From: Agelas oroides
Lineage: Eukaryota; Porifera; Demospongiae; Agelasida; Agelasidae
Direction of reading: 5' to 3'
DNA length: 64,000 nucleotides
Assembly (NCBI GenBank): GCA_949130485.1
Contig: OX422183.1
Span: forward strand, 25,435,316-25,499,315
Below are positions 3-51,714 of the stretch, in pieces. Numbering within the stretch: the stretch's first letter is position 1; the number at the start of each line of letters is the position of its first letter. The notes below the pieces were generated by a model. It ran no database searches. It worked only from the letters and a program-made list of their open reading frames with translations, and was not told the DNA's origin. Made by a program: the position numbers and the translations under genes.

Positions 3-341
3 CTGAACTACAGGTGGACACTCACATATGTCCGGTTTCAACTGTTTTTCAAGAGTGCACTCTTTGGTTCCATGTTTGCTATGCCATCTCAGGCAATACT
101 GACCATATATTTCTCCCATTTTCTCAATTATAGCTGTAAATACTTCAGCCCAATCAAAGCAATTTTCGTTTGGCTGTATTTGTTCACAGAGTGTTGTTAA
201 AACACCCCAACAAAACCTTTGCTTCCGTGTCAGACTGCCTTTTGGGCAAACCTTCTTGCTGAGAACATTAATAACAGTGTGTAGGTGTTTCAAGAGAAGT
301 TGCCTTTCTTTAGCAGATGTCTGCAAGTGTGGTATAATGTC
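3..341 (-). CDS. Exon D7, splice donor at the window edge
   Basis: The acceptor is CCTACATTCTCAG. The 339-nt exon reads DIIPHLQTSAKERQLLLKHL, then RFCWGVLTTLCEQIQ and FDWAEVFTAIIEKMGEIY. It ends VVQ exactly before a GT donor formed by bases 2-1, so the gene continues outside the window. Phase is 0 at both ends. Confidence 0.87.
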
Positions 342-1980
342 CTGAGAATGTAGGAGTATACAGACACATATAAGATCTGTAGACAATAGCAAGCATCTAT
401 ACTCGGGAATAGCAGTATATGCATCTCACTAGAGTATTATTATATAAACCATGCCATGTACGTACATATCTGATACACCAACTGCTGATGTGGATGCATA
501 TGCAGGGGCAGCAGAAGGTACTTGAGATTGGCGGGGCACCAATGATGGTGCGTATGTAAGCAAGCTAGGGGGGTGTGGGGGCATGGTCCTCTAGAAAAAA
601 TTTTAAAATTAGGTGCTCTGAGATCGCTTCTGAGGCCATATTTGTACCCAAATGCCACTAGTCCGACTGGAGTACATGGCGGGAGTAATACCGCCGTTCG
701 CCGTAAACTGTATGGTAAGTAAACGACGCATCTTTAACACTGGCATTTTGATGGTAACTGTTGTATATTATTACACATCAAGTAGCAGTAGCCATCTCTG
801 GATTGGAATCTGTACTTCTGCCCCCCCCCCCCCCCCCCCCCTGCCTCCCCTGCTCCGCCACCCATGATATGAGAATATATTAAGCATTCAGAGTGAGAGA
901 ACCACTCGAATAATTAGTGGGAATACTATCTCTATCAGGCACCCCCCTTGCAGAAATCCTGGGTAAGTCCCTGATGATGCCAGTGGGTAAATAACTGCCT
1001 ACTTAAGGTTACAGGATACAGTTTGCTCATTAATATTCATTACCTTCCTTTGTCTCCATGCAGGAAACAGTTACACCACGCAATAGAAGTGACATATAAC
1101 AGTACTATGAGTACCTTTTAACCAGTATAGTATTAATTCTTATGTACAACGTACTAAGGCGAGTGGCGATGACAAAGTTCATGACTTTTGGCGTCAGAGT
1201 TTGTCTTCAGAAAGGATTGCAGGTACAACATTTCAACACCTACGGGTAATACTCAACCTACTTGAGGGCGGCTCAGAGCAACTTCGTCGCTGTGTGCCAG
1301 GGAAGCGAGTGGCACGCGTTTCTATCCAAAACCTAGGTGGTTTTCAAGCGACTAAATCTAGCCGTATCTCACAAACGGTACGTTGTCTTGGGGAAAACTT
1401 TTCAAGCCGCCCTGCACCTGTCTTCGTAGAATTCGAATACAGTGTAATATACGGTAAGATGTTCTTCCAACAGGAAATAACTGACGCCAAAGTCAATACT
1501 TCATATGCGGACCATTAACCGCAGGCACTGCTATCAAATTGCCTGCTCCGCCCACCCAACCAGCACAGCTGTTACAGGCTAATGCAACTTTTTTTAGCGG
1601 TAAAGTTAAATGCATGCATGCCTGGATACTGCACGGAGAAAAGGAAGGTAATATTTTCATGAATATTAATGAGCAAACTGTATCCCCTAACCTTAACCAC
1701 TCTCAGAATCTGACCATCATGCAACAATTGTATAAGTCTAGTAGTAGTACACCCAGCCTGGGAGTCCCGCTGGCTATGTGGCAACAAATCAAAACCGGTT
1801 CCATCATCAGAATATAGTCGCTAGCTGCCAGGAAGGAGTAACATCTGTCCAACTGTGTGTAGTTCCATGCACAATGTAAATTCCCGTGCTATTTTTGTAG
1901 TGCACACAAAAGTTTGTGTGATGCTGTTGTATATCTGTTGTGGTATTTGCCTAATTCAAAGGCGCCGCATGGGGTCATAT
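342..1980. other. Intronic stretch without a supported gene
   Basis: This holds a fragment of a hAT-like repeat (about 505-655, minus orientation, also seen at 34255 and 41845), a poly-C run (821-841) and unassigned sequence. An open frame at 1201-1518 on the plus strand has no recognisable motif or splice context and is not called. Confidence 0.4.
821..841. repeat. Poly-C tract
   Basis: A run of 21 C residues. Confidence 0.95.
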
Positions 1981-2626
1981 ATGGCATACACACTCCTGAC
2001 TCAGCAAATACAGTTGGACCACAGGGGAGTATATTGCTGAGTCAGGGGTGTATACTTAGCAATTCGTGGTTGAGGGAGTGTATATAGCAGCACAGTTAAT
2101 TTGTTACAATGATCACAACTGCAGCACAGACAAACCAAAAATTAATGTCGGAAAAGCCAACTCTTCCCAGTCATCACCAGGAGAGTTATTACCAGCACTA
2201 CAGAACCCCTGAACTGCCTTAATACTAGCACAACAGCCAAAGTGTCACACAAATTTTCGAGTATATTTGTGCAGCAACATTTGTATTCGACAAGTCGTTA
2301 GTGTGCTAGTACAAATCATTGTTTCATGATCACCAGCTTCTGAGAATGGCTAGGTAGCAAGCTAGCTACACAATCGGCACCATGGCTGAGCACCAGCGGC
2401 ATCTTGGTTTCAAGTCAAAGTGCACAAAAGGCCCCTCGTCATGGGTGCGACTCTGCCTTGACTGCAGAGATGTTTTGGGTGGCCTAAGCGTCCTAAAATT
2501 TATCCTTTTCCAGTCAAAAAGCAGCAGCAACGCACGACAACTCTAGCCACGTCAAATCAAAATTCAAAAATGCGATACCAGAAACGGAAACCACTTATGT
2601 AACCCACCCATGGATTATACTATAGT

Positions 2627-3385
2627 TGGGGCGAGCGTGAGCGAGCCCCACACTAGTGAGTTGAATGGCAGAATTTCTCAGATGTATATATGTGGCAGTC
2701 CCGTGTAGAAATCGAAGGTTATTCCGTCACGTACTTCGATCGCATCGCTGCGTTCAAAGCGCTGTATCGCTGAACTTCCGTTAAGGGCGGGGATCATACG
2801 TGCTTCGTAGATGCATGAATATCTAATAAGTTTGCGAAGCGCGTATGACTGCCGCCCTTCACGGAAGTTCAGTGATACCGCGCTTTGAACGCAGCGATGC
2901 GATCGAAAAACGCGACGGAATAACCTTCGATTTCTACACAGGACTGCCACATATATATATTATATGTATCGTACGTCGTACATCCGGTGCACGCGTACGT
3001 GCGCCACGTATGGACACTATGCACATGATCTGATTGGGAACATGTGCGCACGCTTTTATAGCCAGATTTATAGTTGTTTTGCTGCTTGTAGTGAACATGT
3101 ATATTCTGAATACTTCCAGAAGAGCTCTGAAACCATCGCAAGACAAGGAAAACAGGTTGCTGTGCATACAAGAACGAGAGATCCTGACGTGCGCAAGAAA
3201 CACCCAAGCAAAAGCAGGAAAGATTAACGAAGCGGAGATAGGGCTAGGCGCTCTACCCAGACTGCTGATGCATAAATGTGTATGAATATCCTATCGTGCA
3301 TTGTGCATATATACAATGCATTGCAGTATATACGTAACTACCATGCTGCCTATAACACGACACAACTCGCTCACGCTCGCCCCAC
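2627..3385. mobile_element. MITE-like element with GC-rich inverted ends and an internal 100-bp hairpin
   Basis: The ends are inverted copies of GGGGCGAGCGTGAGCGAG (2627 and 3385). Inside, about 2692-2793 and 2850-2956 form an imperfect inverted repeat that includes a GAAGGTTATTCCGTC block and a CGCATCGCTGCGTTCAAAGCG block. There is no credible ORF. The element interrupts the dispersed repeat at 1985-3560, whose flanking halves are contiguous in the copy near 14.67 kb. Confidence 0.75.
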
Positions 3386-3420
3386 AATGCACCGCATTTC
3401 CCTAGTATATATTATATGAA

Positions 3421-3558
3421 TCATAGTAAGGTGGTGCATATAGTGATTTCACACTACCCTCGACCTTGGTCATCAAAATTTCGGGATATATCTACTGCAA
3501 ACTTCCTCTGACCTCGGTCTCGGGTAGTATATTCGCCATATTCACCTCCTTACTATAG
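3421..3558. mobile_element. Palindromic MITE with AGTAAGGAGGTG ends
   Basis: The two halves are near-complementary around ~3490, including CGAGGTCAGAGGAAGTTTGC and its counterpart. A second copy is at 14498-14662. It is too short for a protein, and the transposase family is not known. Confidence 0.7.
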
Positions 3559-3890: not shown

Positions 3891-4478
3891 AACTGTAAAA
3901 TCGGGATAGTAAGCACCAGTGCCAATTAGCAGCCAGAATGGGTGCTTATAATCGTGGGGTGCTTACATTCATGGGGTGCTAATTAAATGCATGTAATATT
4001 CCGCTAATGTATAGTTAGTTGTGTGGTAACTAATTAGCTGTAATAGTTTAGGCTTTGAGAATCTCCTTCTGCTAATTCCTGTCCCATGTCTGTAGCTTTT
4101 CTAGAACCAGAGATATAGCCAGCAATCAATTGATTGCTGCCAACCCCTGCCCACCAATGCAAAGTGCTTGGAACTAACAAATCTGTGAGGGGTTTGTGCT
4201 AATTCCTGGAGATGTTTCATCAAGAGGCCTTGCATATATTTCATGTCGACGGCTCAGTTACAATCGAAGATAGACACCGGCGAAAGTTAGCTGCTATGTT
4301 CGAAAAGCCAAATCAGCAGACTCACTTCCGTTTGTGCGGCAACGGGTGCCTTTTCATGTAAGGTGCCAATTTTTGTATGGGTGCTTATAAACATGATGTG
4401 GTTGATGTAATCAAAATGGGTGCCATATTCATGGGGTGCTTATTTAGTATGGGTGCTTATTATCCCAATTTTACGGTA
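3891..4478. mobile_element. MITE with TACCGTAAAATTGGG-type ends
   Basis: The inverted ends are GTAAAATCGGGATAGTAAGC on the left and GCTTATTATCCCAATTTTAC on the right. Internal GGGTGCTTAT repeats are present. A partial inverted copy is at 16914-17100. The ends share the TACCGTA start of two other MITEs here, which suggests a Tc1/mariner-type TA target. Confidence 0.65.
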
Positions 4479-6295: not shown

Positions 6296-6322
6296 CATAG
6301 AGGGGCCTACCCTCAAATCTTG

Positions 6323-7203
6323 TTAAGGTGGTACTCCACCCTGGATTTTCAAGGTTGACAAACCTGGAATCCAAGCTGATAGCCTGCTTTTGTCTTCACC
6401 TTTAACAAACAGTCAGTTCTGGGAGTCTTCAACCGTTCACTCACCGTAAAATTGGGGATTTTCCCAGCTTCCTGTCGACATTGGCATCCAATAATCAGTT
6501 TATAATTAAGTTAAGATGTGGCCTGGCAGACACCCTCATGTGGTGGTCGGAACTTTGAAGATCGACTTAAAAAAATGTAGTGTCAGTAGCTGTGAGTAGT
6601 GTGTGATGCCTGCTTGTGAAAGCAAGCTTGTGTCTAGAAGCAGCAGAAAGGCCACAGTGGCCAAGACTGTACTCATTGGGTAGGCCCAGGTCTTGCGATT
6701 GTATGCCAAGCCTAATAGGTGACCGTGGCCCGGTGCTTCAAGTGCTGGGCTGGGCTTTAACTAGAATGCGCAATATATCATTGGTACTACGCTGCAGTAG
6801 ACAAGAAAGCTGAAAAGTGGTTGTGTGTGGAACAGAGCCATGAGTTGTTTAGCGACATAAGGGGGAGAGGTGGGGCTAGTAATGCTTGCTTCCACTCGTG
6901 AATGAGCCCCTCCCACAGACAAGCTGTGAATTTTTTAAAATGTGCATTCATTTTGGTGCAGTCAAGAGTAGTGACAAACATGCTGACTTTGAGAGTAGCT
7001 CTGAACAAAAGCTGACATAGATTTGTTTGAGATACATTGGTGGTTAGGATGCTACCTTCAGTGAGCATGTAGATGTATCTATAAGTGACAATTTTGGGTA
7101 CATGAATATATTAATGAGCTACAAAAACCAAATTAGGCAAAGCAAGATTCCCCTAAACCAAACCCTAACCCTGAAACTAGGAGTAACCCTGGTCCTTCAG
7201 CTA
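6323..7203 (+). mobile_element. TTAA family A, copy 1 (right end lost)
   Basis: It begins TTAAGGTGG and follows the body of the full copies at 19771, 20779 and 22401, but stops matching near 7203. The right inverted end is missing. The small ORFs inside repeat from copy to copy and look like shadows. Confidence 0.75.
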
Positions 7204-8249: not shown

Positions 8250-8872
8250 CACATATACCAAATTCATGGATAGTGACAAACACTGCAGGGGCCTGCGAAT
8301 ATAGCTAAGTGAGTGTTATCCCACATCACTTTAATTCTCTTACCACCCTGTTGAATTCCTGTGAAGGGCCGGTTCTGAAGTTCTTAGTAGATTCTCCTGG
8401 TTGTTTCTGCTTTGTGCTTTGTCGCTTTGTTGCTCCTTTGCAGTGACTGGTGAAGTTATACTACTGACAGCAAACTTGTCAAAACATACGTTAGGTGACT
8501 GTAGTATAAACAGAAGGCTGACCAATACCAAACAAATGACAAATGATGCTGCTGACTTCTGAAAATCACCTTAGTTTTTCCGTAGTGATCTGCTGACTGG
8601 TGCTCCTACAATGATAAGCAAGCCAGCTAGGTATCCACATAGCATCTATCAGCCATTTCGAAGCCAAAGCTGCATGAGGCACACAATCTAATGGCCGTAG
8701 GCGTGTGACTGAACCAGTAAAGGGCCGCACGAAAGGGAGATTCAGAGAGTTGTGTACAGGCGGAGCACAAAATGTCAATGTATGCAAGGTCCGTTCTCGT
8801 AGCACTGTAGAGGTTGGAACGAGGTACTATTCATTAGGCCGAGTTTTAGTGCTAGAAGTTGGCTTCCACACC

Positions 8873-10955
8873 TGCAGCAATCTGTACCTGCACCTGTTGT
8901 TGATGGTGTCTCGGGTCCGGAAAATATTGCTAACTTGTGGTGCAGTAACTTCAAGTGGCTTTACAATATTGTTGATGGCTCAGCTTCCACAGACTTGTTG
9001 TCTGCTCTTGACTCTGGCATCTCCCATGATGATCTTGATCGGACATCCATCGATCTTGGCCGAAGTGATTGAGGTGGCCATAGGTAAATTGAAATGTGGT
9101 AAATCTGATGGTGACACTTTCATGTCCGATCACATCATTGAAGCCCCTTCTTCCATCTGTCAATTAGTAGCTCGCTTGTTCACATCAATGCTGAGACATG
9201 GTTTTATGCCATTAGCCTTTCAAGATGCTACTATTCAGCCAATACCCAAAGGGTCCAAGGATCCATCCTTGTCTGAAAATTATTGCGGAATCGCTCTTGC
9301 ATCCTCTCTCAGTAAAGTCATGAAGTGGTCTATTCCTCTCACCTTGAGGTCGTTCTTCACTAACAGTGACCTACAGTTTGGGTTTAAGTTAGGCTTTTCC
9401 ACCACCCTCTGCACTGGTGTATTGAAAGCTGTCATCAACCGTTATTTAAATAATGGTTCTACAGTTTATGTTTGCCTGATAGATACCTCTAAGGCTTTTG
9501 ATTTGGTTGACCACCATATTCTCTTTGATAAGCTGTTGGAAAGAGGTACGCCTAAGCCTGTTGTCCGCCTGCTATTGCACAGGTATAAGTCTCAGCAACT
9601 ATGCAATCGTTGGAGATAATCAGACTATTTCCAGGTTATTAATGGGTCCGTCAGGGTGGAGTTCTGAGTCCGATTCTGTTTACAATTTATCTCGATAGTC
9701 TTTTGGAGTGTCTTCAGGCTAGTGGCAGAGGGTGCTATTGGGACAACCACTTGGTGCCATCTGTTGCGCCGATGATCTCACTATCCTGGCCCCTTCTCAG
9801 GAAAATGATAGCTGACTGTGAGGCTTTTGGTCAATCTCATGGGCTACGTTTCAATGCTTCTAAGACTCAATTGATCTGTTTCTGACGAACAACTTGCCCT
9901 GTGCAATGTCATTTTTGCTTTGATGGACAATCTTTGCCAGTTGTTGACTCTGTGGTTCATCTTAGAAACACTCTTCAGTTCAATCTGTCAGACAAGCTTG
10001 ACATTCATTTGAAGTCAATGTCATTCATCCGTAAAGCTAATACAGTTCTTTTCCATTTTAAATGCACCAATCCTTTGACTAAGATGAAGCTATTTCAATC
10101 TTACTGCCTTTCACTATATGGGAGTTGTCTGTGGAAGCTAGACTGTGAGGAACTCAACTCACATAGTGTTTCCTTTAATAATATCATCAGAAGGATATGG
10201 AACCTCCCTCACACTAGTCATACTTCTATTGTCCACTCCAGTGGTGTAGCCAGGACATCACCGATGCTAGGGCACAGCATGGGCACACTATGTTTGTACG
10301 AAATTCTGCGCGAAGTACAGAAGCATTAGGGGATCCGGGGCATGCTCTCCTAGAAAATGTTTGGAATTTTATAACCTCCCAGGTCGGTTCAGGGGCCATA
10401 TCGTAGTGCAGTGTATGTCACATATACGGCAAACTCGCGTACGGTGAGCATACGAGACTCGTAATCCTGTGGATATACATTGCAATACTGCGCTGTTCGA
10501 TTTCGAGATGATTTGACGCCCAATTTGCAATCGACAACAATACTATCAGCGCCAATAATTCGCTTGCATATACCTGCACTGGTGGGGCACAGCCTCTAGT
10601 TGCTAGGGCACGTGCCCCAGTTTGCCTCAGCCTGGCTACGCCACTGGTCCACTCTGTTGGCTCTGTTGTCAGTATCCACAATATTGTTTATAATAGGTTT
10701 AGTATTTTATGTTTTTCTGCCATGTTCCACCCTTCATCTCTTGTTTGTACCATTTTTACTGACAGTTCTCACGCCTGTAATTCAAACCTTATTGGATACA
10801 ACTATTTGTATGGCACTAGTCATTGTAAGTCTTATGCACATGATCACATTGCCATTGGTAATCTAGTCAGAGAAATTCGCTCCACACACACTTTTATTCC
10901 TCATTTCAGCCACAGTGAACTGGAAACAATTGTATCAGATGCTGTATCTTTATAA
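8873..10955 (+). pseudogene. Non-LTR retrotransposon reverse transcriptase, CR1/jockey-like, broken
   Basis: The reverse-transcriptase region reads from GKLKCGKSDG through IQPIPKGSKD and DTSKAFDLVDHHI. It then shifts frame to a CADD catalytic block near 9770 and a C-terminal stretch (LFQSYCLSLYGS, then IIRRIWNLP). Frameshifts near 9620, 9700 and 9890 and a MITE insertion at 10239-10646 break it; the frame resumes at about 10655 and ends at 10955. Endonuclease and ORF1 are absent, as in 5'-truncated LINE copies. A (TAA)n tail follows. A related copy lies at 25060-26384. Confidence 0.85.
10239..10646. mobile_element. hAT-type MITE inside the LINE, 8-bp target duplication
   Basis: The inverted ends CAGTGGTGTAGCCAGG and CCTGGCTACGCCACTG are flanked by GTCCACTC on both sides (10231-10238 and 10647-10654). 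This is a clean hAT-style insertion into the 3' coding part of the LINE. Confidence 0.9.
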
Positions 10956-11699: not shown

Positions 11700-14497
11700 A
11701 AAACCCAAGGTAGGTAAACAAACTACATCCATAAGCTACAAATTTCTGGTAGTGAGCTAGCTACAAACAGATACAGACAGACTGTTTAGACCAAGCAAGT
11801 ACAGCTGCACACTAGAACTGACACTTCAGTCTCATTCAGAACTAAGTCTGGGAATGAAACTAGTTCACCTTGACATTGGTGGACGGGGTGACTGTAACGT
11901 GATCATCCCTATGGCTGAACAAGTACCATAACAATGTTGTGAACTCTCCACCTAGCTCTGTCTTGTTGATATGAGGTTATAACCATTGTGTTGGATTGTG
12001 TCAATGCATTAGGATTGATAAGTGTGTGTGCACAAACTACTGCATGTGGGACCTGTATTACTCAACAAAAGAATACGGAAAAAATTTCACGCGAATATTG
12101 AGTAGTTTTACGTGAATGTGTAGTAAGTGCACGGCATTTAACTTCCAGGCGATGCATTGTGCACTCAGCAAGACAGTTTATCAAGTTTCTTTAACAAGAT
12201 AGTGGCATATACTTTCGATTTTGCGAAAGAACAGCATTCATTGGAGCTTCCATTCGTCTAAACCAGTAGAGAAAGTCTAGTAGTTTTGGCAGGAGCTCTG
12301 GGTCTCAGAAACACCCTACTACCTGTGAGTCTGTCCATGGTGAAGGTCCATCCTGCCAAGTCTGCCATATTCTTGTTAGCTGTTAGCTGTTTACATATAT
12401 AGCTCTAGTCATTGAATACAGGTGCTTGAACAGTTTCAGTGACTGTATGGCATGCTATATTTGCATGAGTCATGTTTGTATTCGTCAGACTCAGCTCTTG
12501 TCTAATACCAGGTGCTAGTGTAACAGTATGGTGCAGGAAGCATGGTGGTGTTAAACTTCTTTCAAGCTAAGAGTTCAGAATCTTGTTGCTGGTCGATAAT
12601 TAGTAATAGGAAAATGTATGGGCAGTCAATAATTGGTACCGGTGTTCAATAATTGGCACAATAGTATGATATGAAAAAAGTGTTGTTCGCGCGTGCGTGT
12701 GCGTGTGCGCTATCACTCTGCTGAAAGGGGTTACTCTAATCGGGGAGACCCTACTCTATCGTTTGGTGCAAGAACCAAGTTCCTATGTAGTTTCTGGACT
12801 GAGATATGAAGGCAAGTACAAGTTGCGTTCAATAATTGGCACCATACCCTACCAGCAGAAATGCTGATTCCATCAATTGGCAGAACAATCATACTTTTGT
12901 TTAAACTTTCATCCTTGCTTACAACCCCATATATATCTATGGTCTTTCTCTTAGTCAATGTTTGTGCTCTTGCTGCTTACTAACTGCCTGGTGGAAAGTG
13001 TATTTCTGTAGTAGCTAGATCTACTTAATGGTTTGTTATCCACCTGTATTTGTGTCTTTCCACTTTGGGCACAGTTACTACTTGTTAAACCCCAAGAGGA
13101 AGAAGAAGAAGTTTATAGTTATGAATGAATGAATGAATGAAGCCACAAAGTTCATGTGTTTTTCAATGGCAACTGCTCCCAGTTGTGTTAAACTTCAGTA
13201 AGTCCTCTCAGACTTGTAAAGTTAAAACATTAGGCACTATTTATGATAAATGTTCCTGTCTGTTCTACACCCTTGTGCCTGTAAATCAGTTACAACCCTC
13301 ATCTTCGGGCATGATATAAACAATACATAATGAAGTAGAGGTTTTCAGGGAAGTTATTTCAATGCTAGCAAACTGAACTGTTCGTTATCTGTGAAAACGT
13401 AACATTTTTCTAGTAGTGTATTTCAGGTTTATATGTAACTGACAAAATATTAGCAACAGACAGACGCAAAAACACCCCAGCTATCTAACTCCCTTACACA
13501 GATGCACCATAGGTTGGGTGCATTAGAAGGATTGTGCAATTCATGTTAGAGTAACATTGGCATACTTATCATCTTTTCAAGTAAATACAACTTTAATGTG
13601 CCATGTGTTTGCTATCGTCAATACTATAATGTCCCTTTTGAGCAAATACCCTCCCCTTTTTAGTCCTCAAGTTTTTACATAGGTAGTTTTTACTCATTTA
13701 AATGCCCCATTGGTGAGCACCATCTGGGCATACCTTCAGTGAGTTTTTGTCATTGGGTGTTTTTGTAAATGTGTACACCCATGAACGACTAGCCTAGCTC
13801 ATTCACAGCCACCACCCAGGTTTTGTCACTCACACTACAAGCTTACACAAGTCGTCCCTTAAGACCACTAGTGACACAAGTAACATTGATGCCACTGAAA
13901 AGAACATCCCTGTGGAGCTAGTCTTCTGCATTCTGTAAGCAGCCTAGTGTTTCTATGCAACTAGTTAGTCCTCATACAATAGACACTGATGCTCCAGGTG
14001 CCCCTCCCAAATATCACTGTAACTGTCTTACACTTCAACCCACTAGTGTGGGAGGCCTGACCCAATTTCTCTTTTCGAGGTCCTTTATTGGAAGTCATAG
14101 TGGTCAGAGGTCACACACATAGCCATAGCATGCTATTGAATAGGCAAATGAGGCAGAAAATGACCCAGGCATTGGTCACAAAACATAAAGGCAAAATAAT
14201 TTTGGTCTTTCTTACATATCGTGGTCATTCACACACCTTTTGCAGTACAGACAGAGTGTGATCCTGAAACCCATGAGGATGCTGATGTATTCCATCCTAA
14301 AATATGGAGAAAATGTAGTAATTTAAATTTTATGCAAGTGAGACAATTGGGATCATTGCTGAACTTTTCTGCCGTTCTTGAGGTTTCAGCATAGCTAGCT
14401 ATGACCTGTATTGTAGCTATACCTGTGACAATATTTTGATCGCACACAAACAGGGCATAAATATATACACAGAATACACACATATATGTTATATATA
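11700..14497. other. Intronic stretch with a dispersed repeat
   Basis: 12398-12600 matches 62304-62465 (TATAGCTCTAGTCATTGAAT, then GTTCAGAATCTTGTTGCTGG) and partly 55905-55960. A 'CAATAATTGG' word recurs near 12593, 12625, 12645 and 12828. A short (GAAT)n is at 13122-13140. No gene is supported. Confidence 0.5.
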
Positions 14498-15721: not shown

Positions 15722-15968
15722 CATGATGGCATCCACATTTCTGAGAAGATCTCTTGACAAGCCATTTGAAGCAATGTAGGAGTGCAAATGCTCCTTCAAT
15801 TTTTCACCAGGAACACTAGTATCACTTTGCGGAGCAGTAAATAAGTTGGGTACATCCAGCTTCATCACATCAAGGATATATTTTACTGGTTGTTTTAATT
15901 CAGCATAAAAGAGAGCTTTAGAGGAAATAAAATCCAATATAAATCCATGCTCATTTGGCTCTGGAAAC
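15722..15968 (-). CDS. Exon D6
   Basis: The acceptor has a long T tract (TTTTTTTTTCAG) and the donor is ATCATG|GTTAGTC. The 247 nt are open and read FPEPNEHGFILDFISSKALF, then YILDVMKLDVPNLF. Incoming phase is 2 and outgoing phase is 0. Confidence 0.9.
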
Positions 15969-16669: not shown

Positions 16670-16761
16670 CTTTTTACTACTTCCTTAAACAGCAACGCCC
16701 AATGAACATCAGTAAGGTCACAATGACTGGAAGCATAACTTCTCAGATACTCTGACAGAAA
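16670..16761 (-). CDS. Exon D5
   Basis: The acceptor is CGCCCTGCAG and the donor is AAAAAG|GTATGTTGG. It reads FLSEYLRSYASSHCDLTDV and then WALLFKEVVK, leaving two bases that complete the first arginine codon of D6. The upstream intron is 10.2 kb and contains the TTAA elements and a LINE. Confidence 0.82.
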
Positions 16762-17100: not shown

Positions 17101-19770
17101 GCTAACGACACAGGATAAAAGCTAGCTATTAAGTTTACTTAGCCTAACAGATGGAGGATAAAATACCTCTCAGCTTTTCCTCTTTCTACTTTTAATCATG
17201 AGCTAGTAGGAAAATCTCTGCTATACATATGCTTCATACCCAAAGCACAAAGCTAGCAGTGGAATCTTTGCTATATCAGAGTAGTATAGCTCTGTGATGT
17301 ATAATATTTCTTGATCTCACATTTTCAGTTCAATTCCCTGCTGTCTAGACTTGTTACCCTATTTCACCATGTATGCAAAAGGCACAGGAAATTGCTACTT
17401 CATCTTCAACACTGGCAAAAATGGGTGCAAATTGCATTGCACAATCTATCTAACACACACTATGTACCAAATTTCATCACAACAGCATCAAATGAAACTT
17501 TCGCATAGACTCCACATTAGAGATTACTAGGTTAATGCACATTGAAGTGGTGATAAAACAGCTAAAATGCCACCTTGCCACATCAAAGTGGCACACCCTT
17601 GTTGTTGATTCAATTTGCTGAAATGGGAAACTGAAAACCAAGCAATGCCACCTTAGCCTCATACTCGCTAAATATACAAGAGTCAGAATTAAGCAATTCA
17701 AAGTGATATATAACTGGTTGACACTGTATATAAGGGCCTTATTTAAATGTTTTTATACTTGCATACTTGTATTGTGGGTTATTAACCCTCGGCGCGCATG
17801 CGCACCAAGGGTTACGGGTCGCAGCCAAAATATTTTGGACCCAATACAGTTCCGTTGCCAAACAGTTCTGTTACGGGCATATTTTTGGAACTGAATCAGT
17901 ACTACAGTAGCATCAAGACAGTATCAGATCAGTACGCACATATCTGTATCAGACCTGTACAAATAGCATGTCTTAGGGCTGTTTTTGTTTGTTTGTTGTT
18001 TGTTTGTTTTTAATTGTGTAGGAATGCTCCTTCAGCCTGTACTGGCCGGTCTTCCAGGAGGTCCTCAAACAGATAAAACTGATACAGAGCTGCAGAACTG
18101 ATACAGATCCAATTTACCGTTTGGTATCAGACCCGTTGCCAAAACGTTCTGTTGCGTTCCTGGGTACAGATCTGGATCAGATTGGTTCCAGTTCTGATTC
18201 AAAATGTACGATTTTGCTGTGTGTGTTTCTGTCTATCTGTCTGTCTGTCCGTTTTCTCTATTCTGCCTTCTCGCACTTTTAGGCGTTCAACGAGAGGTAT
18301 CAGCGGTTACAGCGTGGAAAATGCAGTAAAACTAAAAAGCCGTTTTCTCTGAAACTGTTTAGTCAAAAGTTAGAAGCGTTAACTTATAAACGGGATTCAC
18401 TTTGTTCACCGATTCTGAGGTCTGGCACATGCGCTATGCATTACGTAATCCATTACTCGAGTCAGAGTAAACATGTAAGAGGGAAAGTTGGCGTGTCCGA
18501 AACAGCAAGGTGAGGGGAAAATTTACGTAAAGCTAGTCTAAAATGCCCCTGCAAAGTGATAGTCTGATAGTTGAGGTAGAAATTTGGGATCTGTGCCTGC
18601 CAGTGGCACACATGTATGTACAATGATTTATAAGTTACATGTGTGCAACGGCAGGCTACATACTCTTGATGACACCCCAGCTTGAAGTGCTCAAGCATCT
18701 TGGCCATGCAAACTTTGATGACAACAGGTCAGCAGAATTGAATTGATTTTTCCATTTATCGCTGTTTGGGATGATGTTTGGATGAAATATGGCCTTAATT
18801 TAGATCAGAAGAAACTACATGGAAGCGACCAAATTGTTTATCAACAATGAGGAGTTTGACCAAACCAAACCAACCACAGCACAGATTGCATTCAGTATCA
18901 TCCACAGGGAAGGGTCAGGTGGCTTCTCAGGGGGTTTGCGTGTTTGTGGAATGCACTCGGAGAAGCTGATAGCTAGCTTTTGAAAGAGGACTCAAGTTTA
19001 AAATTGGTACCTGCTTATAACTCTTTAGTTACACCACCCTTTCACCAAAAAGTGTCTGCTGACACAAGCCAAATACCTAATTGGGCTTACTCCAGATTTT
19101 TGAATGGTAATGTAATGCAGGTGCAAGAAAAAGTACTTCAATTGTGCTGCTAAAAACTTGCGATTCTTCAACCTGACAAAGCATTTACTTATCCTTCAAC
19201 TAAAATTACAAAGCTTCAGCACAAGGATTCTGGCTTTTGTCACAAGACCCTTTCCTCTGTCAGTTGGGTTAGGGCCTAGACTGGTAGACAACAAAATTAA
19301 GTAGCTGACTGATTTATGGCCATGTGTCTGATTGGCCACACTTAACACACTAAAGCCCATGTCACCAGACCCTTATCTGTGAACAGGAGGGAGAACATGA
19401 CGTCACATCATAGTGGCAATTAATGTGCTGTGATGACATTCCAAGTGAATTAGTGCTACAAGCAAGAGTGGTGCTATGAATGAAGTCATAATGAGTGCAT
19501 TCAATTTTCAACTGTGCTGAAGCCATCTGACAGGATAGACCTGTACATTGCTAGTTTAATGGTCGCTTGTTCATGAGAAGCAATTTTGACTATAGCCAGA
19601 CGCCTTCAGTTTTGTTGACGCCCACATTGACTTCGTCCATAGAGCACTAGTTGTAGCTTGTATTCGTGGTTGTTGCTATCATACAGCACATTGTCAATGT
19701 CACATGGTCACCATGGGCCAGTGTGGCAGTGCGTATTATGTCATTGCTGAATGCTAGGAATTTCATTCCA
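17101..19770. other. Intronic stretch without a supported gene
   Basis: It contains a GC-rich palindromic word (GCGCATGCGC near 17794), short (TTTG)n (17985-18010) and (CTGT)n (18230-18248) tracts, and otherwise unassigned sequence. A frame at 18152-18352 has no recognised domain. Confidence 0.4.
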
Positions 19771-20782
19771 TTAAGGTGGCAGGGAACCCTGTGTTTTCAA
19801 GGTCAACAAACCTGGAATCCAAGCTGATAGAATTCTTTGTCTTTGTAAACTTTTAGCGCACAGTCCGTTTTGGGAGTCTTCAACCATTCACTGTCCGTAA
19901 AATTGGGGATTTCCCCCATTTCCTGTCGGCATTGCCATCCAATAATCAGTTTATAATTAAGTTAGTTAAGATGTGGCCTGGCGGAACCCCTCATGTGGTG
20001 GTCGGAACTTTGAAGATAAGCTTAGATCGACTTAAAAAAAGAAAGAAAAAAAGAGAGCAGTTTAGTAGAGTGCTGTAGTGTCAGTAGCTGTGAGTAGTGT
20101 GTAATGCCTGCTTGTGAAAGCAAGCTTGTGTCTAGAAGCAGCAGAAAGGCCACAGTGGCCAAGACTGTATTTGTTGAGTAGGCCCAGGTCTCGCGGCCGT
20201 ATGCCTAGCCTAGTTGGTGACCGTGGCCAGGTGCTTCGAGTGCTGGGCTGGGCTTTAACCAGAATACGCAATTTATCGTTGGTGCTACGCTCTGGTACCC
20301 AAGGGAGCTGAACGGTGGTTGTGTGTGGAACAGAGCCGTGAGTTGTTTAGCGACATAAGGGGGAGAGGTGGGGCTAGTAATGGTTGCTTGCACTCGTGAA
20401 TGAGCCCCTCCCGTAGACAAGCTGTGAATTTTTGGAAATGTGCATTCATTTTGTTGCAGTCAAAGTTGTCCATTCCAAGAGTAGTGACAAACATGAGTCT
20501 AGCCTGACTTTGAGAGTAGCTCTGAACAAAAGCTGGCACAGACTGATTTGAGATACATTGGTGGTTAGGACGCTACCTACAGTGAGCATGTAGATGCGTC
20601 CATCGAGTGGCAATTTTTGCTCGTGAATATATTAATAAGCTACTAAAACCCCTTTTTTAAAATTAAGCAAGATTGCCCTAAAGCAAACCCTAACCCTCAA
20701 ACTAGGAGTAACCCTGGTCCTGACTGTAACCCTAGTTTACGTTTTCGTTAACCTCTGCCGCAAGACTTCACAGCCACCTTAA
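19771..20782 (+). mobile_element. TTAA family A, copy 2
   Basis: A 1.0-kb element from TTAAGGTGGCAGGG to CAGCCACCTTAA. Its right-hand TTAA (20779-20782) is also the left-hand TTAA of copy 3. TTAA duplication plus short inverted ends is the piggyBac pattern. There is no transposase inside; internal ORFs of 60-80 codons are conserved only as repeat sequence. Confidence 0.85.
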
Positions 20783-27488: not shown

Positions 27489-27570
<82 letters not shown>

Positions 27571-27600: not shown

Positions 27601-28156
27601 CAAGGTATTATAGTAATTAATGCACTTCAATGAGCTTAGGTATTAGTAACTCTTTTGCTATTAAATTAATGATTACAAGTAACATTTTCCCAAATCATGC
27701 AACTATTCCATCCACAACTCAACTCCAAGACCATTCCCATTCTGCACAAGCTTATAAAAGGTATCAAACTGGACACTCAAGCTGTCAGTATACTGCATTA
27801 TACTAGCCAGATACTTAATTTGCATTGCACAAGCCTGGGCAAGCAGCACACTATTAATACCACACGTCACTCCTCATAGCACACAGAAATGCATCCAGCT
27901 TTAGCAATGGGGGCTGTTAGCTGTTGATTGCTTGCACAAAAACTGAGCTACCCTTTGCCTCACATTCATACACATGCACAAAAACACACACATTAATTGA
28001 GAATAGCCATTACTATGTGATTTGAGGGTCATGGTAGCATGTGATTTTAACCCTTTAAACCCTATAGTACACTTTTGATAACGTCATACTGCGCACTGCG
28101 CAGAAAAGATAGTCTCTGCACGCTGGCGCGCAGGTTCTGCGTGAGCAGAAAGGGTA

Positions 28157-28252
28157 GGACAGGGGGAGGTGGGTGGGACAGGGGGAGGTGGGTGGGACAG
28201 GGGGAGGTGGGTGGGACAGGGGGAGGTGGATGGGACAGGGGGAGGTGGGTGG
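28157..28252. repeat. 19-bp G-rich minisatellite
   Basis: About five units of GACAGGGGGAGGTGGGTGG. The other B copies carry only one unit, so the expansion happened in this copy. The G runs could form quadruplexes. Confidence 0.9.
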
Positions 28253-28389
28253 GGTCACCCGCAGGGTGCTGTGCACATGGCAGCTGCTAGGCTTGGCTGC
28301 AAAAGGACCGTGGTTGGCACCGGGTGGGCCAACTCTTGGCCTGGCTGCATGAGCAGGCTTAGAAAATGCTACTCTCACCTTTCAGGGGG

Positions 28390-28805
28390 TTCATTTCTGG
28401 CAGGGAAGGCTTCTTGGGCTCTAAGCGGGTGTTTGCCAATGGAGAGTGCTGACCATTGCATGCTCGTTAATGAGGGGGCGTGGTTAAGGTCACATGTCTG
28501 CTTGCTAAGGCTGGAAGTGGAGTTGGGCTCAGTTTTGGAGTCAGAGCTTTGACACAAATGGAGATACGGTGCGTTAAAGGCATGTTTAGGCTAAAACTTC
28601 ATTTCTGGCAGGGAAGGCTTCTTGGGCTCTAAGCGGGTGTTTGCCAATGGAGAGTGCTGACCATTGCATGCTCGTTAATGAGGGGGCGTGGTTAAGGTCA
28701 CATGTCTGCTTGCTAAGGCTGGAAGTAGAGTTGGGCTCAGTTTTGGAGTCAGAGCTTTGACACAAATGGAGATACGGTGCGTTAAAGGCATGTTTAGGCT
28801 AAAAC
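28390..28805. repeat. 208-bp tandem duplication
   Basis: 28390-28597 and 28598-28805 are almost identical; I see one substitution (GGAAGTGGAG versus GGAAGTAGAG). The near identity implies a recent event or ongoing homogenisation. Confidence 0.9.
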
Positions 28806-28840
28806 TAATCTCCAGTGAAAAAAATTCAGTGTTTAAAGGG

Positions 28841-30202: not shown

Positions 30203-30436
30203 CTCTGTTTCAATGTATGGGCGAAAATCGCCAACCCAGGTAACAGCTTTACTGGATGCCAAGAACATTCCCAAGGTGCTTTCAACTCCTTTCTTGATTT
30301 CAACAGCTTTCAATAGAAGATAGAACCATTTTCTGCACTCAACTTTTAAAGTAGTACTTTTGCAACGTTTTTGCATGGAAACAAGCCACACTGTATCCAA
30401 GAAATCAACTCCCTTCAGGGCAAAGTGAAAAAAGCA
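30203..30436 (-). CDS. Exon D2
   Basis: The acceptor is TCACTTATTGCAG and the donor is ACAGAG|GTATGTCTG. There are 78 codons in phase 0 (FALKGVDFLDTVWLVSM, then KWFYLLLKAVEIKKGVE). The pattern is that of an alpha-helical scaffold, with no catalytic signature. Only a 42-bp intron separates it from D1. Confidence 0.9.
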
Positions 30437-30478: not shown

Positions 30479-30659
30479 CTCCCCAACAAATCCTGCCACA
30501 GTGTGATTAACACTAGCATCAGAAAGTTTGAGTGCTGGGTCATGTTTATGAAACAAGCAGCCATAGTGGTCTCTGGATGTCCTGACAAATGATGAAACAA
30601 ACTGCTCTTCATTCTGAAAGAGCTTCTCCTGATTCTGAAGAATCTCGTATATAAGGTCC
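30479..30659 (-). CDS. Exon D1
   Basis: The acceptor is GCTATCTCTCTGCAG and the donor is GGGGAG|GTAATTC. The 181 nt are open and read DLIYEILQNQEKLFQNEEQF, then HYGCLFHKHDPALKLSD. It needs two bases from an upstream exon that I could not place. The outgoing phase 0 matches D2. Confidence 0.85.
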
Positions 30660-44275: not shown

Positions 44276-46952
44276 CTTAGTTAGGTTGGAGGTGTTGGGT
44301 TGGTTTGACAAAGGTATGATAGAGTCCAAAGCATGGTACAATACATAAAGCCTTTACGCATGTTTTACATCTGCATGTGGTAGTTACTTGACACCTTCCT
44401 TTCTTCCTGCTGCACAAAGCACACTCCAGTTGTGCAGGTCGACCAGTAGGAGTTGGAGGCACCTTTTCCGGAAAGTGATCTTTCAAAGAGGTGACGGTAC
44501 AGCTTCGCTCTGACTACCAGACTGTGAACTTAGATCAACTGAAAGTACCTAAATCTCCTCACCTGTCTGTCGAATTTAACCTTTAGCCAACTCAATTCGA
44601 AAGTTCACGTGTCTTACATGATGACTGCGTCAACTGGCTGTACAAGATGTATGCATTGACAATGGTGGTGTCAATGAGAAAACATGCGTTTCCACCACTT
44701 CACAGTTCGATGACTGAAAGAGTAGTAGCTGATCATCTGGTCAGACAGATCTACTCCTCCCATGTACATGTGGCGATTGTACTCCACGATACACTGTGGT
44801 TTGGAGACGACTTCATGCCCACCTTCTGCAAATGTTGATGTCCGCTGAATGGAAACCATGGTGTTATCATGGATGGTGGAAATCATGGTGACAGGTCGCT
44901 TGTCCATCCATTTGAGAGAGAGCAGCACCTTTGTCATACTCTGCACCTCCCCTTTTGACAATGGTGATGGGCATTTGATCCTTTTCGTAATGCCTTGACA
45001 GTTGAGACATGCTGTCTCACATGCACCGAATCCAAGTCATCAAAGGTCAACAAAGAGGTCTGGGCTGCTGTAAAAGTTATCACAATAGAGGTGATGCCAC
45101 TTGTGCTCCAGCCCTTATACCAATTTCATGGCAACAGCATGGGTGTGACCTTTTGTTGCATCAAGTGTGTCGTCTGTAGTAGTAAATAGAAAATAGCCTT
45201 GTTCCCAGACCTTTGCTAGTTTGGGCAAAATTAAAGGGGAGAAAACCTAGTATGTTATCGTGTGAATGACATCAATATCTGCCAGTAGATGGAGGGAGGG
45301 GGCCCCAGAAGAATTTTTGCATACGTATGTTCTCACCTTGAATTGTGAGCGGTCCAGTTCCCATAGTGTTCAAGACCCTAACACTTGGATAGACACTGCA
45401 GACCCCTCCCACCCTCGGTCTACCTAGACAGACATTGATGTCATTCACGATAAGATCTTGCCCTTTGTTTTTGCAAGTGATCCTAGCTGCAAAGGCAAGG
45501 CGAAACAGAAAATTTGTATTGTTGATGTTTAGACAAGTTTGACTTTTGCTAAGTAAAGGTCAAAGTTGGTGTCATGGTGTTGTGTGCTATTCATACACTC
45601 TATTTGTACCTAAAGTATTGCCTGTGTACCATCTCCAGGTGTGGGTGTTGCCACTGCTGCTATCAGCCAGAACAAAGGCCTTCATTCCCCACTTCATTGG
45701 TTTCTTGAGCATGTATTGAATGAAATGCAACCTCCCCTTGAAGCCAATCATGGACTCATCAATTTCAATCACCCTGCCTAAGGTGAAGTTCTCCAACGCT
45801 AGCAGAGGATCCATGAATGGCCTTAGTTTATACAGTGAGTCATGCTTGCGCCAGGTTGGCCCTTGGTGATGTACTTAGCACTGTCATGGAGCAACCGGAG
45901 AATCAGTGAGAAGTGATCTCATTGTTCATAATGCTTGAGAAGGTGATCATAGCAAATGGCCACTTTTTTGACCGTGCATCCTCAATTTGTGGCAGCACAA
46001 CAAAACCCGTTGTGATGACAGTGGTAAGAAAATTTTTCATCTCAACATGAGTATGTGCTGTTTTCTCCCATACTCGGACCATACTCAAAGCGAGACACTG
46101 ATGTAGTGCTGAGCGAAGCAGTTTGTCTCATCAACTACCACCTGTTGCAAGTCATCAGGGATCAGAGGTTGAAAAAAAAATCAACTGGTGACTTGTCTGT
46201 CATATGAGTCACAAGTGCAACCAGGACCCCCAGAGAAGGATGGAATAGTAGGGATGATGCCAGTTACTGTGCCTTGCCCATCATCATTGTCACTGCTAAT
46301 GCTGCAAGTATAGCCTCTAATTTGACCTCTCTCTTGATCATGACCCCTCCTTCGACCACGACCCCTCCCTCGACCATGCATGACCTCTCCCTCAACCATG
46401 CCCCTTCCCTCGACCATGACCTCTCCCTCAACCATGACCTCTCCTTCAACCATGACCTCTCCCTCAACCATGCCCCTTCCCTTGACCATGACCTCTCCCT
46501 CGACCATGACCTCTCCCTCGACCATGACCTCTTCCTTGACCATGACCTCTCCCTCAACAATAACCTCTCCCTCAACCATGCCCCTTCCCTCGACCATGAC
46601 CTTTACCTCAACCTCTCCCTTGACGTCTATTTCTTCCTCTCCCACTGCTGCTGTGTCCTTTCATCATCGATCACTCGCATTCACATTGCTATTGCCACCA
46701 TCCACACCCAAGTGCCCATCTTATTGCCATCATTCTGATTATCCACACTTGTATGTCCATCACATACATTGCCACTGTTATCATCATCACCACCATCACT
46801 TTTACTGCCTCTCGAACAGATATCATCATCCAAATATCCATCAAAGTCTTCGTCAGCGTCTTCATCCAATCTCATCAGTACACCACCACACTAAACCTTG
46901 CCATCATAATAACAAAATCTTCCGTAGTAAGCAGAACTCATCTAAGTGCTAG
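44276..46952 (-). pseudogene. piggyBac-type transposase, broken into segments
   Basis: Segments in order from high to low coordinates: an acidic N-terminus (46875-46681, DEDADEDFDGYLDD); a repeat-expanded ORF (46645-46181); the conserved start near 46088 (VEMKNFLTTVITTG, then PQIEDARSKKWPFA); the catalytic region at 45814-45587 (VIEIDESMIGFKGRL, with KKPMKWGMKAFVLAD); the second region at 44961-44671 (STIHDNTMVS, YMGGVDLSDQ); and the C-terminal Cys/His domain at 44486-44277 (CALCSRKKGRCQVTTTC, PCFGLYHTF). The family match to DDE_Tnp_1_7 is clear. Frameshifts, including one at a poly-A run near 46172, disable it. It could once have moved TTAA-bounded elements like those in this window. Confidence 0.88.
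46333..46612 (-). repeat. 18-bp minisatellite coding for MVEGEV units
   Basis: About 15 imperfect units of the plus-strand word CCTCTCCCTCGACCATGA. Because the unit is a multiple of three, the minus frame stays open and gives tandem MVEGEV, MVEGRG and MVKEEV hexapeptides inside the acidic N-terminal region of the piggyBac ORF. Confidence 0.9.
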
Positions 46953-47581: not shown

Positions 47582-48687
47582 CTCACCCTAATAGAAAGCT
47601 GCTACTATAAGAACACAGCTGCCTGAGTCCCGCCCATGTACTGGAGTTAGTAGGGGCATCCTCGGAAGCTAGTTAGATGCATCAATATCCGGCAAGCTAC
47701 GTATACTAAGCTTGAACATATATAGTCGCCAAGAAATTGAATAATAACGCGTTCACCATAATATATATGTGGTAGCCACGCTCAGATACCCAGTTCATGA
47801 TTAAACAGAGGCTTTGTGCTCAGCCTTAGCATGCTAGATAGCTACTGATGAAGTTTGCCCACCCTTTCATAATTTTAGTATGTGATCGATTTAGCTGTTG
47901 AAACATTGTACGCAGCCACTTGCAAGCATATTTGCAAGCTCAACACGGTGATGGCTGTATTGCACAAACTAGAGTAATGCAGGGTTAAAGTCCTACATAC
48001 TCACAACGAGTGCTCAAGCATATCATGTGCAATCAGATATGTCATGCCTCACCCAAATGCCCTACTCCCATGTCCCCACTATTTGTAGCTTCACACTCGA
48101 TTTGTGTGCTGAAAATTTTCCACACATAGGAACATCAATGTGCCAGCCAGTGTTTGTGCTCCACCACTTGACACACAACTCTTGAACATTGAACTCATGT
48201 AGCACACATTCAGTGCTTACTACAAGCAGTATTGAGAGGGTTACATAATTATATATATGAACAGTGTATGTCTAACCTAAAATGTTAAAGTGATCATGTG
48301 AAAAAGGCGAGATAACCTTTTTGAGACATTACGTTGGAGCTCATCTGGTTGCAACAATAATATACCAAGTTATTCCTCTCCCAAACTCCCTTAACAAAAC
48401 CACTTACACTAATACATACCTCCTTATATGAACAGTATTTGTCAAAAAATCCTACCTAACATGTTGAAGTGGTCGAATGAGATTACGTGGAAAAAGGAGA
48501 GATGACATTCTTAAGGCATTAAATTGTAGCTCATCTGGTAGCAACAACAATACACCCAGTTTCACTCCTTTCCCAATGTGTCTAATTGTTTCTTTTTTGA
48601 GGGTGATAGATGATGACTCCTAGTGCAAAACCAGAAGAGCAAAGAGATTAAAAAAAATCAATGTTGATACAATTGATGTTTATGTAC
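47582..48687. other. Intronic stretch with a short dispersed repeat
   Basis: A block containing GAGCTCATCTGG and GCAACAATAATA-like words occurs near 48330 and 48510 and again near 41650. No gene is seen. Confidence 0.4.
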
Positions 48688-48785
48688 CTTTAAGATGTAA
48701 TTATTCCAAAGCCTCTCTGCTGTTTTTTGTAGTTCATCAGATGATACACTAAGACCACACTGACGACACCGAAGAAGAATAGTAA
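48688..48785 (-). CDS. Exon E7
   Basis: The acceptor is AATTTCTTGCAG and the donor is TTAAAG|GTACAT. The frame set by E6 reads TILLRCRQCGLSVSSDELQ and then a helix ending WNNYILK. Another frame gives a hydrophobic stretch but ends in a stop, so the E6-compatible frame is preferred. The CRQCG pair could be half of a zinc site; no second half is seen nearby. Confidence 0.72.
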
Positions 48786-48939
48786 CTGCAAGAAATTAAA
48801 AGATCACCAAGCAGATAGTTAAAAACACTCCACTAGCCAACATGTTTAACCAAGCACGCAAGCAACATACTCCAGAGAATCCAGCAGTATATGTTTCTTT
48901 TGTGCCTCTTTACAAACTGCAGCACCAGTATTCCCTCAC

Positions 48940-49001
48940 AGGCCTCATAGAGGTTATGAAAAGTGCTGACTTTCTCATCACCGTCCATAATTTTAAAATC
49001 C
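48940..49001 (-). CDS. Exon E6
   Basis: A 62-nt exon between ATACTCATAG and GCCT|GTGAGG. It takes two bases in and passes one base out. It reads DFKIMDGDEKVSTFHNLYEA. Joined to E7 it gives a smooth NLYEAFTILLRC, which supports both junctions. Confidence 0.6.
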
Positions 49002-49143: not shown

Positions 49144-49260
49144 TGTTCAAGAAATCCATTTAGCACTTCAGCAACCCTCTCAACTGGCAGTGACTCCATT
49201 CTCCCTAACACAGTCTCGATAAACTTGTCCAGATCTCCACACTGATAGACATCACGTCTC
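49144..49260 (-). CDS. Exon E5, with an alternative in-frame stop just downstream
   Basis: The acceptor is TTTTATTACTACAG. The frame reads RRRDVYQCGDLDKFIETV and continues helical. A donor at GAACA|GTATGG joins in phase to E6. If this donor is not used, the frame runs on to a TGA at 49088-49086 and closes a complete 367-residue protein from E1. Both readings are compatible with the sequence. The donor is mediocre, so the short form may be a real isoform. Confidence 0.72.
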
Positions 49261-50362: not shown

Positions 50363-50560
50363 CTGCGCATATGAATAATGAGAAGCACGTAGAGCGGAAA
50401 GTTTTCTTCAAACACAACTGGATTATTTTTGTACTTTTCCAACTTTCTGTTCATCTTCTTCAGTAAGATTTCTGATAGCTGCTTCCCCAGTGCTTCATGT
50501 TGTGATTTTGCCTTGAAAATGAAAAGCTTTTGAACATCAATAGATCTCAAAGTCTCTCCA
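50363..50560 (-). CDS. Exon E4, lysine-rich helical segment
   Basis: The acceptor is GTCTTAACAG and the donor is GCAG|GTGAGAACC. The 198 nt are open throughout (ETLRSIDVQKLFIFKAK, then EILLKKMNRKLEKYK) and suggest long charged helices. Incoming and outgoing phase are both 2. Confidence 0.83.
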
Positions 50561-50822
50561 CTGTTAAGACATAATTATGGCAGAACATACAATTTCAGCA
50601 CAAACTACTACACAAAGTGTGGTTAACAAGATTTGGTGACAAAATCATTCCCAACTTTGAGTAGCATTCCAGTTCAATAACATTTTTAGATATTCTACTT
50701 CTAGTCAGGCTTTAAAATGTACAGGTCTTTATGAGAACAACTAAACAGCACACCAGTATGGTGTACATCTTACTCTCTTGTGAGGAGATAGTTAAGAAAT
50801 CAATGGCTTACATACCTCACAC

Positions 50823-50976
50823 CCAAACTGGTTGAAAGTACACATCACATGCTGGAACTTTACTATATCTCTGCAAACACACACCGGCCCTTCCTTTGGA
50901 AAAGCATACATCTTAAATTCTTTCCATGGATTCAAAAGCACTCCTCTGCTCAATTGTGATTTGCTTGATGCTTTCA
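50823..50976 (-). CDS. Exon E3
   Basis: The acceptor is ATAACCTGCAG. The frame reads VKASSKSQLSRGVLL and then KMYAFPKEGPVCVC. The donor that keeps phase with E4 is TTTGG|GTGTGAG; a nearby GAG|GTATGT would put E4 out of frame, so the first is preferred. Several cysteines (VCVCRD, VMCTF) are present but do not form a recognisable zinc motif. Confidence 0.78.
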
Positions 50977-51044
50977 CTGCAGGTTATAAGAAAACAGTTA
51001 ACGTACTACCTGGTATTGCCTTTATTGACATATAAGAATCTTAC

Positions 51045-51500
51045 CTGGTAATAACGTTCCTCTGTGAAAAGTGGTGGAACTTAGTTGAGAAGAAAATTCA
51101 GAATCTTTTTGTAGTATCTGGACTAAGACATCTCCTGGTTTGTAAGTATTTAAAATTGACAAAAGTTCTTCCCCATCCTGAGAGGTTACCACAAGAACAG
51201 GAATATCTGAACACACTGCATCATGAAGCAAGGAGTGTGAAACCAAGGTGTGGTTATTGGCAGTGTTAATCAGAACAACTGCTTGAGCATGTTCCTTAGA
51301 GTACTGAACAATCAGCTCTGGAATGTTGTCATCTGGGGTTAACATGTGGCAACGAACGTGCTTACTCTCAATGCCATAAGCCCGGTGCCAAATCATTGTT
51401 TTCTCCACAGTAACTGGTTCTTGGGTAATGGGAGATGTAGCATATGAGAAACACTTGAAGGGTCTTTGACTAGCTGCACTTTTCTCAATCAGTTGTAGAC
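51045..51500 (-). CDS. Exon E2, possible PA-like domain
   Basis: The acceptor is TTTGTCATACAG and the donor is CCAG|GTAAGATTC. The 456-nt exon takes one base from E1 and passes one base on. It is the longest exon of the gene. The central part alternates predicted strands and helices: AVVLINTANNHTL, then SDIPVLVVTSQDGEELL. This pattern resembles the protease-associated (PA) fold of vacuolar sorting receptors and RNF13/GRAIL ligases, where the IP-V-V--DGE-L stretch is typical. PA domains are usually lumenal, and no signal peptide is present here, so the likeness may be only structural. Family membership is inference. Confidence 0.85.
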
Positions 51501-51593
51501 CTGTATGACAAAATTTAAGAAATCATGCAAGAAATCATGGCATAAAATGTAGCTACATCAAATAAGTAACTTCAATAAGTAAGTGTTGCATAC

Positions 51594-51714
51594 CATTAAC
51601 AATAGGTTGCAGACTGTCTATGGTTTCAAAGTGGTCCACACACGCAGAAGAGATCAATAGCTCAGCAACTGAGTCCTGAGCAGGGTCTTTTTTCTCACCC
51701 TGCAGCTCATCCAT
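51594..51714 (-). CDS. Exon E1, start of the large gene
   Basis: The exon starts at an ATG (MDELQGEKKDP) with an in-frame TGA 33 nt upstream, which fixes the N-terminus. It ends at AATG|GTATGC in phase 1. The 40 residues are acidic and then helical (SVAELLISSACVDHFETI). No signal peptide is present, so a cytosolic or nuclear protein is likely. A TTAA-bounded element begins about 190 bp upstream, so no promoter can be pointed to; an upstream non-coding exon is possible. Confidence 0.8.

Follow-up and report, generated by a model that had tools for sequence, protein, structure and literature searches.

A probable RNF213-related family of giant AAA+ ATPases in the sponge Agelas oroides, traced from the exons of its N-terminal arm

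The DNA analysed here, a stretch of 64,000 nucleotides from the sponge Agelas oroides (contig OX422183.1, C1:25435316-25499315; hereafter the window), carries on its minus strand a chain of short exons separated by introns of very different length. These exons are likely to encode the N-terminal arm, approximately the first 960 of about 5000 residues, of a giant RNF213/mysterin-related AAA+ protein, which would have a motor-like function, has probably lost the ubiquitin transfer carried out by RING and RZ elements and would belong to an immune-type family. Judged from sequence, the genome probably holds an expanded family of such RNF213-related giant ATPases, with a new N-terminal module and without canonical E3 zinc centres. 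The family is recognisable because its AAA+ core matches RNF213, though this core lies outside the window. The relation to RNF213 rests on the AAA core, and the rest of the protein fits by position and size the order of arm, linker, six-AAA core, hinge and E3 module that is given in PMC7311170. The searched genome comprises 259 Mb in 141 contigs, and all genome match counts are lower bounds. A further 40 kb of DNA to the left of the window was added to follow the gene past the edge, and the two nearest relatives, paralogue A (C1:25265001-25325000) and paralogue B (C1:25638001-25698000), of about 60 kb each, were used for comparison.

Exon chain of the window and its paralogues

Fifteen minus-strand exons, amounting to 873 codons in the window, are supported by homology. 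Exon 1 (51594-51714), with an ATG at 51714, is present in B (48.8% identity, expectation value (E) 2.9e-5) and was not found in A. Exon 2 (51045-51500) has 12 matches in the genome. The phase model and the paralogues support all further exons, beginning with exons 3 (50816-50976), 4 (50363-50511), 5 (49144-49260), 6 (48871-49001), 7 (48688-48785) and 8 (48456-48619). An intron of 17.8 kb then leads to exons 9 (30479-30659), 10 (30203-30412) and 11 (26930-27019), one of 10.2 kb to exons 12 (16670-16761), 13 (15722-15968) and 14 (14237-14296), and one of 13.9 kb to exon 15 (1-341), which crosses the left edge and ends 264 bases past it, at window coordinate -263. The borders of this curated model were set by consensus and homology. 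From 51714-51594 to 341-(-263), the chain has no stop across 960 codons, its 14 acceptors are AG and its 15 donors GT, and all 14 junctions are consistent in phase. Low-scoring filler exons of the automatic model (e.g. 48832-48808, 48215-48126, 35969-35907, 27310-27272 and 15462-15450) were dropped because the phases join without them; some of these overlap weak paralogue alignments (E 0.001-0.01), which corresponds to the level at which the automatic model admits exons.

The original prediction had described a host gene of about 52 kb, in which twenty exons with introns of 42 bp to 15 kb encode nearly 1000 residues. The many short exons of one strand that join in phase are borne out by the 14 consistent junctions and by the colinearity of A and B, and so is a single host gene whose large introns carry transposon pieces, three of which are recognised by Pfam. 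The exon chain thus stands, with 15 rather than 20 supported exons and 873 codons in the window. The right-hand start at 51714 fits, whereas the left end is not that of the gene, as exon 15 crosses the edge and coding runs on for at least 40 kb to the left. The gene therefore measures at least about 92 kb (from 51714 to 40 kb left of the edge) instead of 52 kb. Introns of the curated model range from 66 bp to 17.8 kb, and an intron of 42 bp appears in the automatic model, in which exon 10 uses another acceptor and starts at 30436.

Order and strand of the exons are identical in the paralogues, with 14 of the 15 window exons in A and all 15 in B. An open-frame comparison likewise found minus-strand segments over 51.7 kb of the window to be colinear with both, the remaining segments common to A or B being mostly repeat-like. 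In A, 10 of 14 acceptors and 12 of 14 donors have an in-phase splice site at the exact homologous place, and in B this holds for 11 of 14 acceptors and 14 of 15 donors; in the other cases an in-phase AG or GT lies within 12 nt. Given a background of AG and GT at 6-7% of positions, the binomial probability is 1e-9 to 1e-16 per splice-site set, a test that is not fully independent because several window borders (including those of exons 3-6, 10-13 and 15) were chosen when the paralogue models were already known. At the level of codons, comparison of the window with the two paralogues gave nonsynonymous (dN) and synonymous (dS) divergences of 0.31 and 1.08 (871 codons) and of 0.28 and 0.96 (900 codons). 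The resulting dN/dS of about 0.29 against each paralogue, with dS near saturation, shows in these alignments that selection acts on the protein.

The size of the introns raises the question of whether two genes have been joined, with the exons between 51.7 and 26.9 kb forming one gene and those between 16.8 and 0 kb belonging to a downstream RNF213-like gene. The exon groups are set apart by introns of 10 to 18 kb, which would suit such an arrangement, as would the core loci at which exon 2 is not detected (5 of 14, see below). However, every junction joins in phase, A and B repeat the exon order with splice sites of matching phase flanking each gap, and exon 2 lies upstream on the same strand at 9 of the 14 core loci, so that two genes are regarded as very improbable. 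Phase continuity, together with exons and most splice positions common to A and B, indicates that the two distant exon groups, taken to be the E and D sets of the original prediction, very probably belong to one gene. The prediction had also placed both sets in one gene, in agreement with their order in A and B and with the downstream exon set at all 14 loci.

The AAA+ core, the copies and the zinc-finger question

Beyond the left edge, an exon of 398 residues at the AAA4 position returned 11 rows from the PDB, nine of which are RNF213 sequences (E 1.9e-23 to 7.4e-23) and two of which are unrelated (E 0.35 and 0.71). A later AAA exon matches RNF213 at E 3.5e-10. Dynein or another AAA protein as the source of the core was ruled out, RNF213 being the sole significant match. 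P-loops occur in the window model at residues 2511 and 3007 and in the A model at 1984, 2477 and 3040, and one stands at each of the AAA3 and AAA4 places. The AAA4 motifs G[AP]PG[ST]SKT (Walker A) and MDEAG (Walker B) are intact in all 14 copies described below, and AAA3, judged from its P-loop, reads GETGVGKT in all three models. In the automatic model, the window gene amounts to 4464 residues by the end of the sequence read, A to 5239 and B to 5404. Whereas no family could be named for the gene in the original prediction, its downstream AAA+ core matches RNF213; what holds is that the window part, taken alone, matches nothing in Pfam or the PDB.

Searches with exon 16, with the AAA4 exon and with the exon placed where the E3 module of RNF213 would lie (the E3-position exon) all lead to one set of 14 loci, at which the three share order and strand. 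With second pieces of one locus merged, at least 14 copies are thus counted: seven on C1, within 0.75 Mb (24.92-25.67 Mb), three on C3, two on C4 and one each on C5 and C23. Their AAA4 identity to the window copy is 53-85%, and copy number and divergence suggest, by analogy, an immune-type multigene family. A lone piece of the E3-position exon (C7:4734668-4735072), interrupted by one stop, is perhaps a dead copy. Five short AAA-like matches of about 65 residues (E 3e-6 to 8e-6), clustered over 0.2 Mb at C13:8083524-8287812, perhaps represent another ATPase array.

Exon 2 lies in the largest open exon of the window (51022-51522, minus strand), and the members of this module show the conserved pattern HIRCH ... 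AVVLIN ... PVLLLT.DG..LL. The earlier description of the module as PA-like is plausible but unproven on sequence grounds. The Pfam PA family (PF02225) is touched by one of ten members, at E 0.11 and below the gathering score, and is the weakest of five families that are each touched by one member, the other four being unrelated. A profile of the ten sequences gave 17 PDB rows, none significant, among which a designed Rossmann protein ranks first and an aminopeptidase (E 0.085), presumably PA-bearing, and RNF43 (E 0.97) also appear. A single-sequence AlphaFold2 model of exon 2 was unusable, with a mean predicted local distance difference test score (pLDDT) of 34.

The same genome encodes a separate RNF213, which helps to judge whether the family retains ligase elements. 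Its exon at C5:7594679-7596319 (plus strand) matches RNF213 structures at 2e-142, and it is 29-31% identical to the 14-copy family. About 10 kb downstream of this exon lies a RING-like exon (L034:6652-6969) with a C3HC4-like zinc finger, for which the best Pfam family is zf-RING_5 (E 0.0042, below the cut-off) and which matches itself alone in the genome. The scan for zinc centres took in A and B, two of the 14 copies, both read nearly to their ends. From AAA4 on, no RING pattern was found in the spliced models or single open frames of A (2200 residues) or B (2327 residues); the same pattern does recover the RING-like exon on C5. No RZ finger (C-x3-H ... C-x2-C) was found there either, with a pattern that has no positive control. 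RZ-type patterns at window position 504 and at A 46644 and A 46611 lie outside model exons and upstream of the core. A looser RZ pattern occurs in A at 59957 and 3706, outside model exons, the second of these in the part from AAA4 on. CxxC pairs are scarce in the C-terminal part, with one in A and three in B, and the shared one falls within AAA4. PMC7311170 places the RING of mouse RNF213 at 3940-3999, well before the ends of the A and B models. As neither RING nor RZ was found in A and B, the family is not classed as an RNF213 E3 ligase.

That the genes nevertheless encode a working RNF213-type ubiquitin ligase, whose RING/RZ exons were missed or have diverged beyond recognition, is considered unlikely. 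Such a protein would be in keeping with an AAA4 exon and a later AAA exon that match RNF213 alone significantly, a zinc exon may be small and interrupted by introns, the C terminus of the window copy lies outside the sequence read, and the RZ test had no control. Yet the separate RNF213 resembles the solved structures far more closely (E 2e-142 versus 1.9e-23) and is only 29-31% identical to the family, no counterpart of its RING-like exon was found elsewhere in the genome, and no pattern fitting RING or RZ appears in A or B from AAA4 on.

Several results weigh against reading the window exons as the arm of an RNF213-related, motor-like protein. The 890-residue part in the window gave no PDB row up to E 10. 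For exon 16, used singly and in a profile of three sequences, the PDB rows were weak (the best being an H-NS protein, at 0.015 and 0.064), 761 C-terminal residues of A gave a single row (E 0.66), and an hhalign comparison between the E3-position exon and an exon of the separate RNF213 failed, with a probability of 0.4 and E 0.14. Because the arm, exon 16 and the C-terminal part show no convincing match, homology beyond the AAA core rests on position. In Pfam, nothing above the cut-offs was found for the 960-residue arm or for a 1486-residue C-terminal piece of A. The N-terminal arm and linker have no convincing sequence match to RNF213 and fit it in position and length; the E3 module scaffold of RNF213 was matched neither by phmmer nor by hhalign, and its position fits. 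To the uncontrolled RZ pattern must be added that the A model lacks a terminal stop codon and that the stop of B is possibly intron read-through, so that the last exon may be missing in both; that the models hold filler exons and could lack real ones; and that the sequence read for the window gene reaches no further than 40 kb beyond the left edge. The uncertain ends of A and B lowered confidence both in the preferred reading and in that of a ligase-free family. Furthermore, no exon-2 match exists at 5 of the 14 core loci, and 3 of the 12 exon-2 matches lack their own core (one near an end of contig C23, one at C3:12.63 Mb and a second beside the C4 one). Some copies contain stops inside the matches, which reflect decay or reading into introns, and hence not all copies need be working genes. 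The immune role, finally, is plausible by analogy, as two studies report that RNF213 is expanded in symbiotic bivalves (PMC9993606) and induced in activated cnidarian immune cells (PMC13319465).

Stops in other copies, and very long introns with transposon pieces, would also be expected if the window held a decaying pseudogene or a chance chain of exons. This explanation is given the least credence, below even that of two joined genes: the 15 curated exons have canonical borders, in the window copy the reading frame stays open over 420 residues in exon 16, 398 in the AAA4 exon and 431 in the E3-position exon, the Walker motifs are intact and dN/dS is about 0.29. The automatic 52-exon model of the window gene, which includes a few filler exons, is also free of stops, but these were forbidden by construction.

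Transposon pieces and repeats around the exons

Three transposon pieces are recognised in the introns of the window gene. The 17.8 kb intron holds a transposase piece on the minus strand (44674-45036; Pfam DDE_Tnp_1_7, E 7.2e-11), which we take to be of piggyBac type, and by eye further transposase pieces perhaps extend up to about 46000. Pieces of reverse transcriptase lie on the plus strand in the 10.2 kb intron (25001-25570; Pfam RVT_1, E 1.7e-22) and in the 13.9 kb intron (8678-9616; RVT_1, E 8.3e-7, 29.4 bits, just under the cut-off of 29.6). A transposon-encoded exon chain was ruled out, with two of the three recognised pieces on the opposite strand and all three in introns.

A repeat-coding open frame with YWKDPEK-type units (54156-54755, minus strand) belongs to a high-copy dispersed element with at least 198 genome matches (150 of 1130 candidates scored), many of them open and at 95-98% identity; its match to DUF7215 in Pfam is weak. 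Positions 6301-7196, 19758-20748 and from 20736 on appear to be copies of one dispersed repeat, which also occurs at A:58462-59448. Simple and tandem repeats cluster at 26211-26384, 27485-27569, 28152-28253 and 28390-28806 and include a perfect (ATA)58, (TC)42, a 19 bp unit present 5.4 times and a 208 bp duplication at 99%.

Possible mode of action and relation to known systems

The protein may work like the motor half of RNF213. ATP binding and hydrolysis in AAA3 and AAA4 would act as the switch for a large dynein-like ring with its N-terminal stalk, which could assemble on intracellular targets, e.g. invading microbes or vesicles. The exon-2 module might serve for targeting or for binding partners, instead of the carbohydrate-binding domain that human RNF213 is reported to have, and ubiquitin transfer by RING/RZ is probably lost or might be supplied in trans, perhaps by the separate RNF213. 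For RNF213 itself, PMC11549300 describes coats on intracellular pathogens that require its ATPase, and an RZ finger that is required for ubiquitylation. A further proposal, possible though on balance doubtful, is that of a ligase-free expanded family that kept the ATP-driven ring, lost both zinc centres and acquired a novel sensor module at the N terminus, its members acting as pathogen-coating machines or as decoys or partners of the single true RNF213.

Most work on RNF213 concerns one vertebrate gene and its antimicrobial and moyamoya roles, and the interplay between the giant ATPase and the ligase is still under investigation. Judged by title and the beginning of the abstract, none of the papers listed in the literature searches treats a sponge RNF213-like family or a RING-less RNF213 family, which is weak evidence of absence. 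If the proposed family is real, a natural motor-only family would reveal what the RNF213 motor does alone and would tell whether coat assembly can be uncoupled from ubiquitylation. For annotation, it is an example of a gene of more than 90 kb in which the first 52 kb cannot be recognised by themselves and make sense only with the help of paralogues and the downstream core.

Known systems resemble the family in part. Known PA domains are mostly lumenal or extracellular. Weak profile rows of exon 2 (aminopeptidase 0.085, RNF43 0.97) point towards a PA domain (PF02225; RNF43 ectodomain), but no match is significant and an RNF213-like protein should be cytosolic. With human RNF213, whose N terminus carries CBM20 according to PMC11549300, the family shares an extra module near the N terminus; unlike it, exon 2 has its own pattern, and CBM20 is not among the Pfam families returned for the ten exon-2 members (E up to 10). 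The closest known system is RNF213/mysterin as a whole (PDB 6TAX, 6TAY and 8S24, presumably of mouse and human). The family differs from it in that A and B have no RING/RZ pattern, the arm and C-terminal part are unmatched by sequence, and at least 14 copies stand beside a separate, much closer RNF213 in the same genome. What the two have in common is the sequence match of the AAA4 and later AAA exons, P-loops where AAA3 and AAA4 are placed, a giant size and a core that follows a long N-terminal arm and precedes a long C-terminal part.

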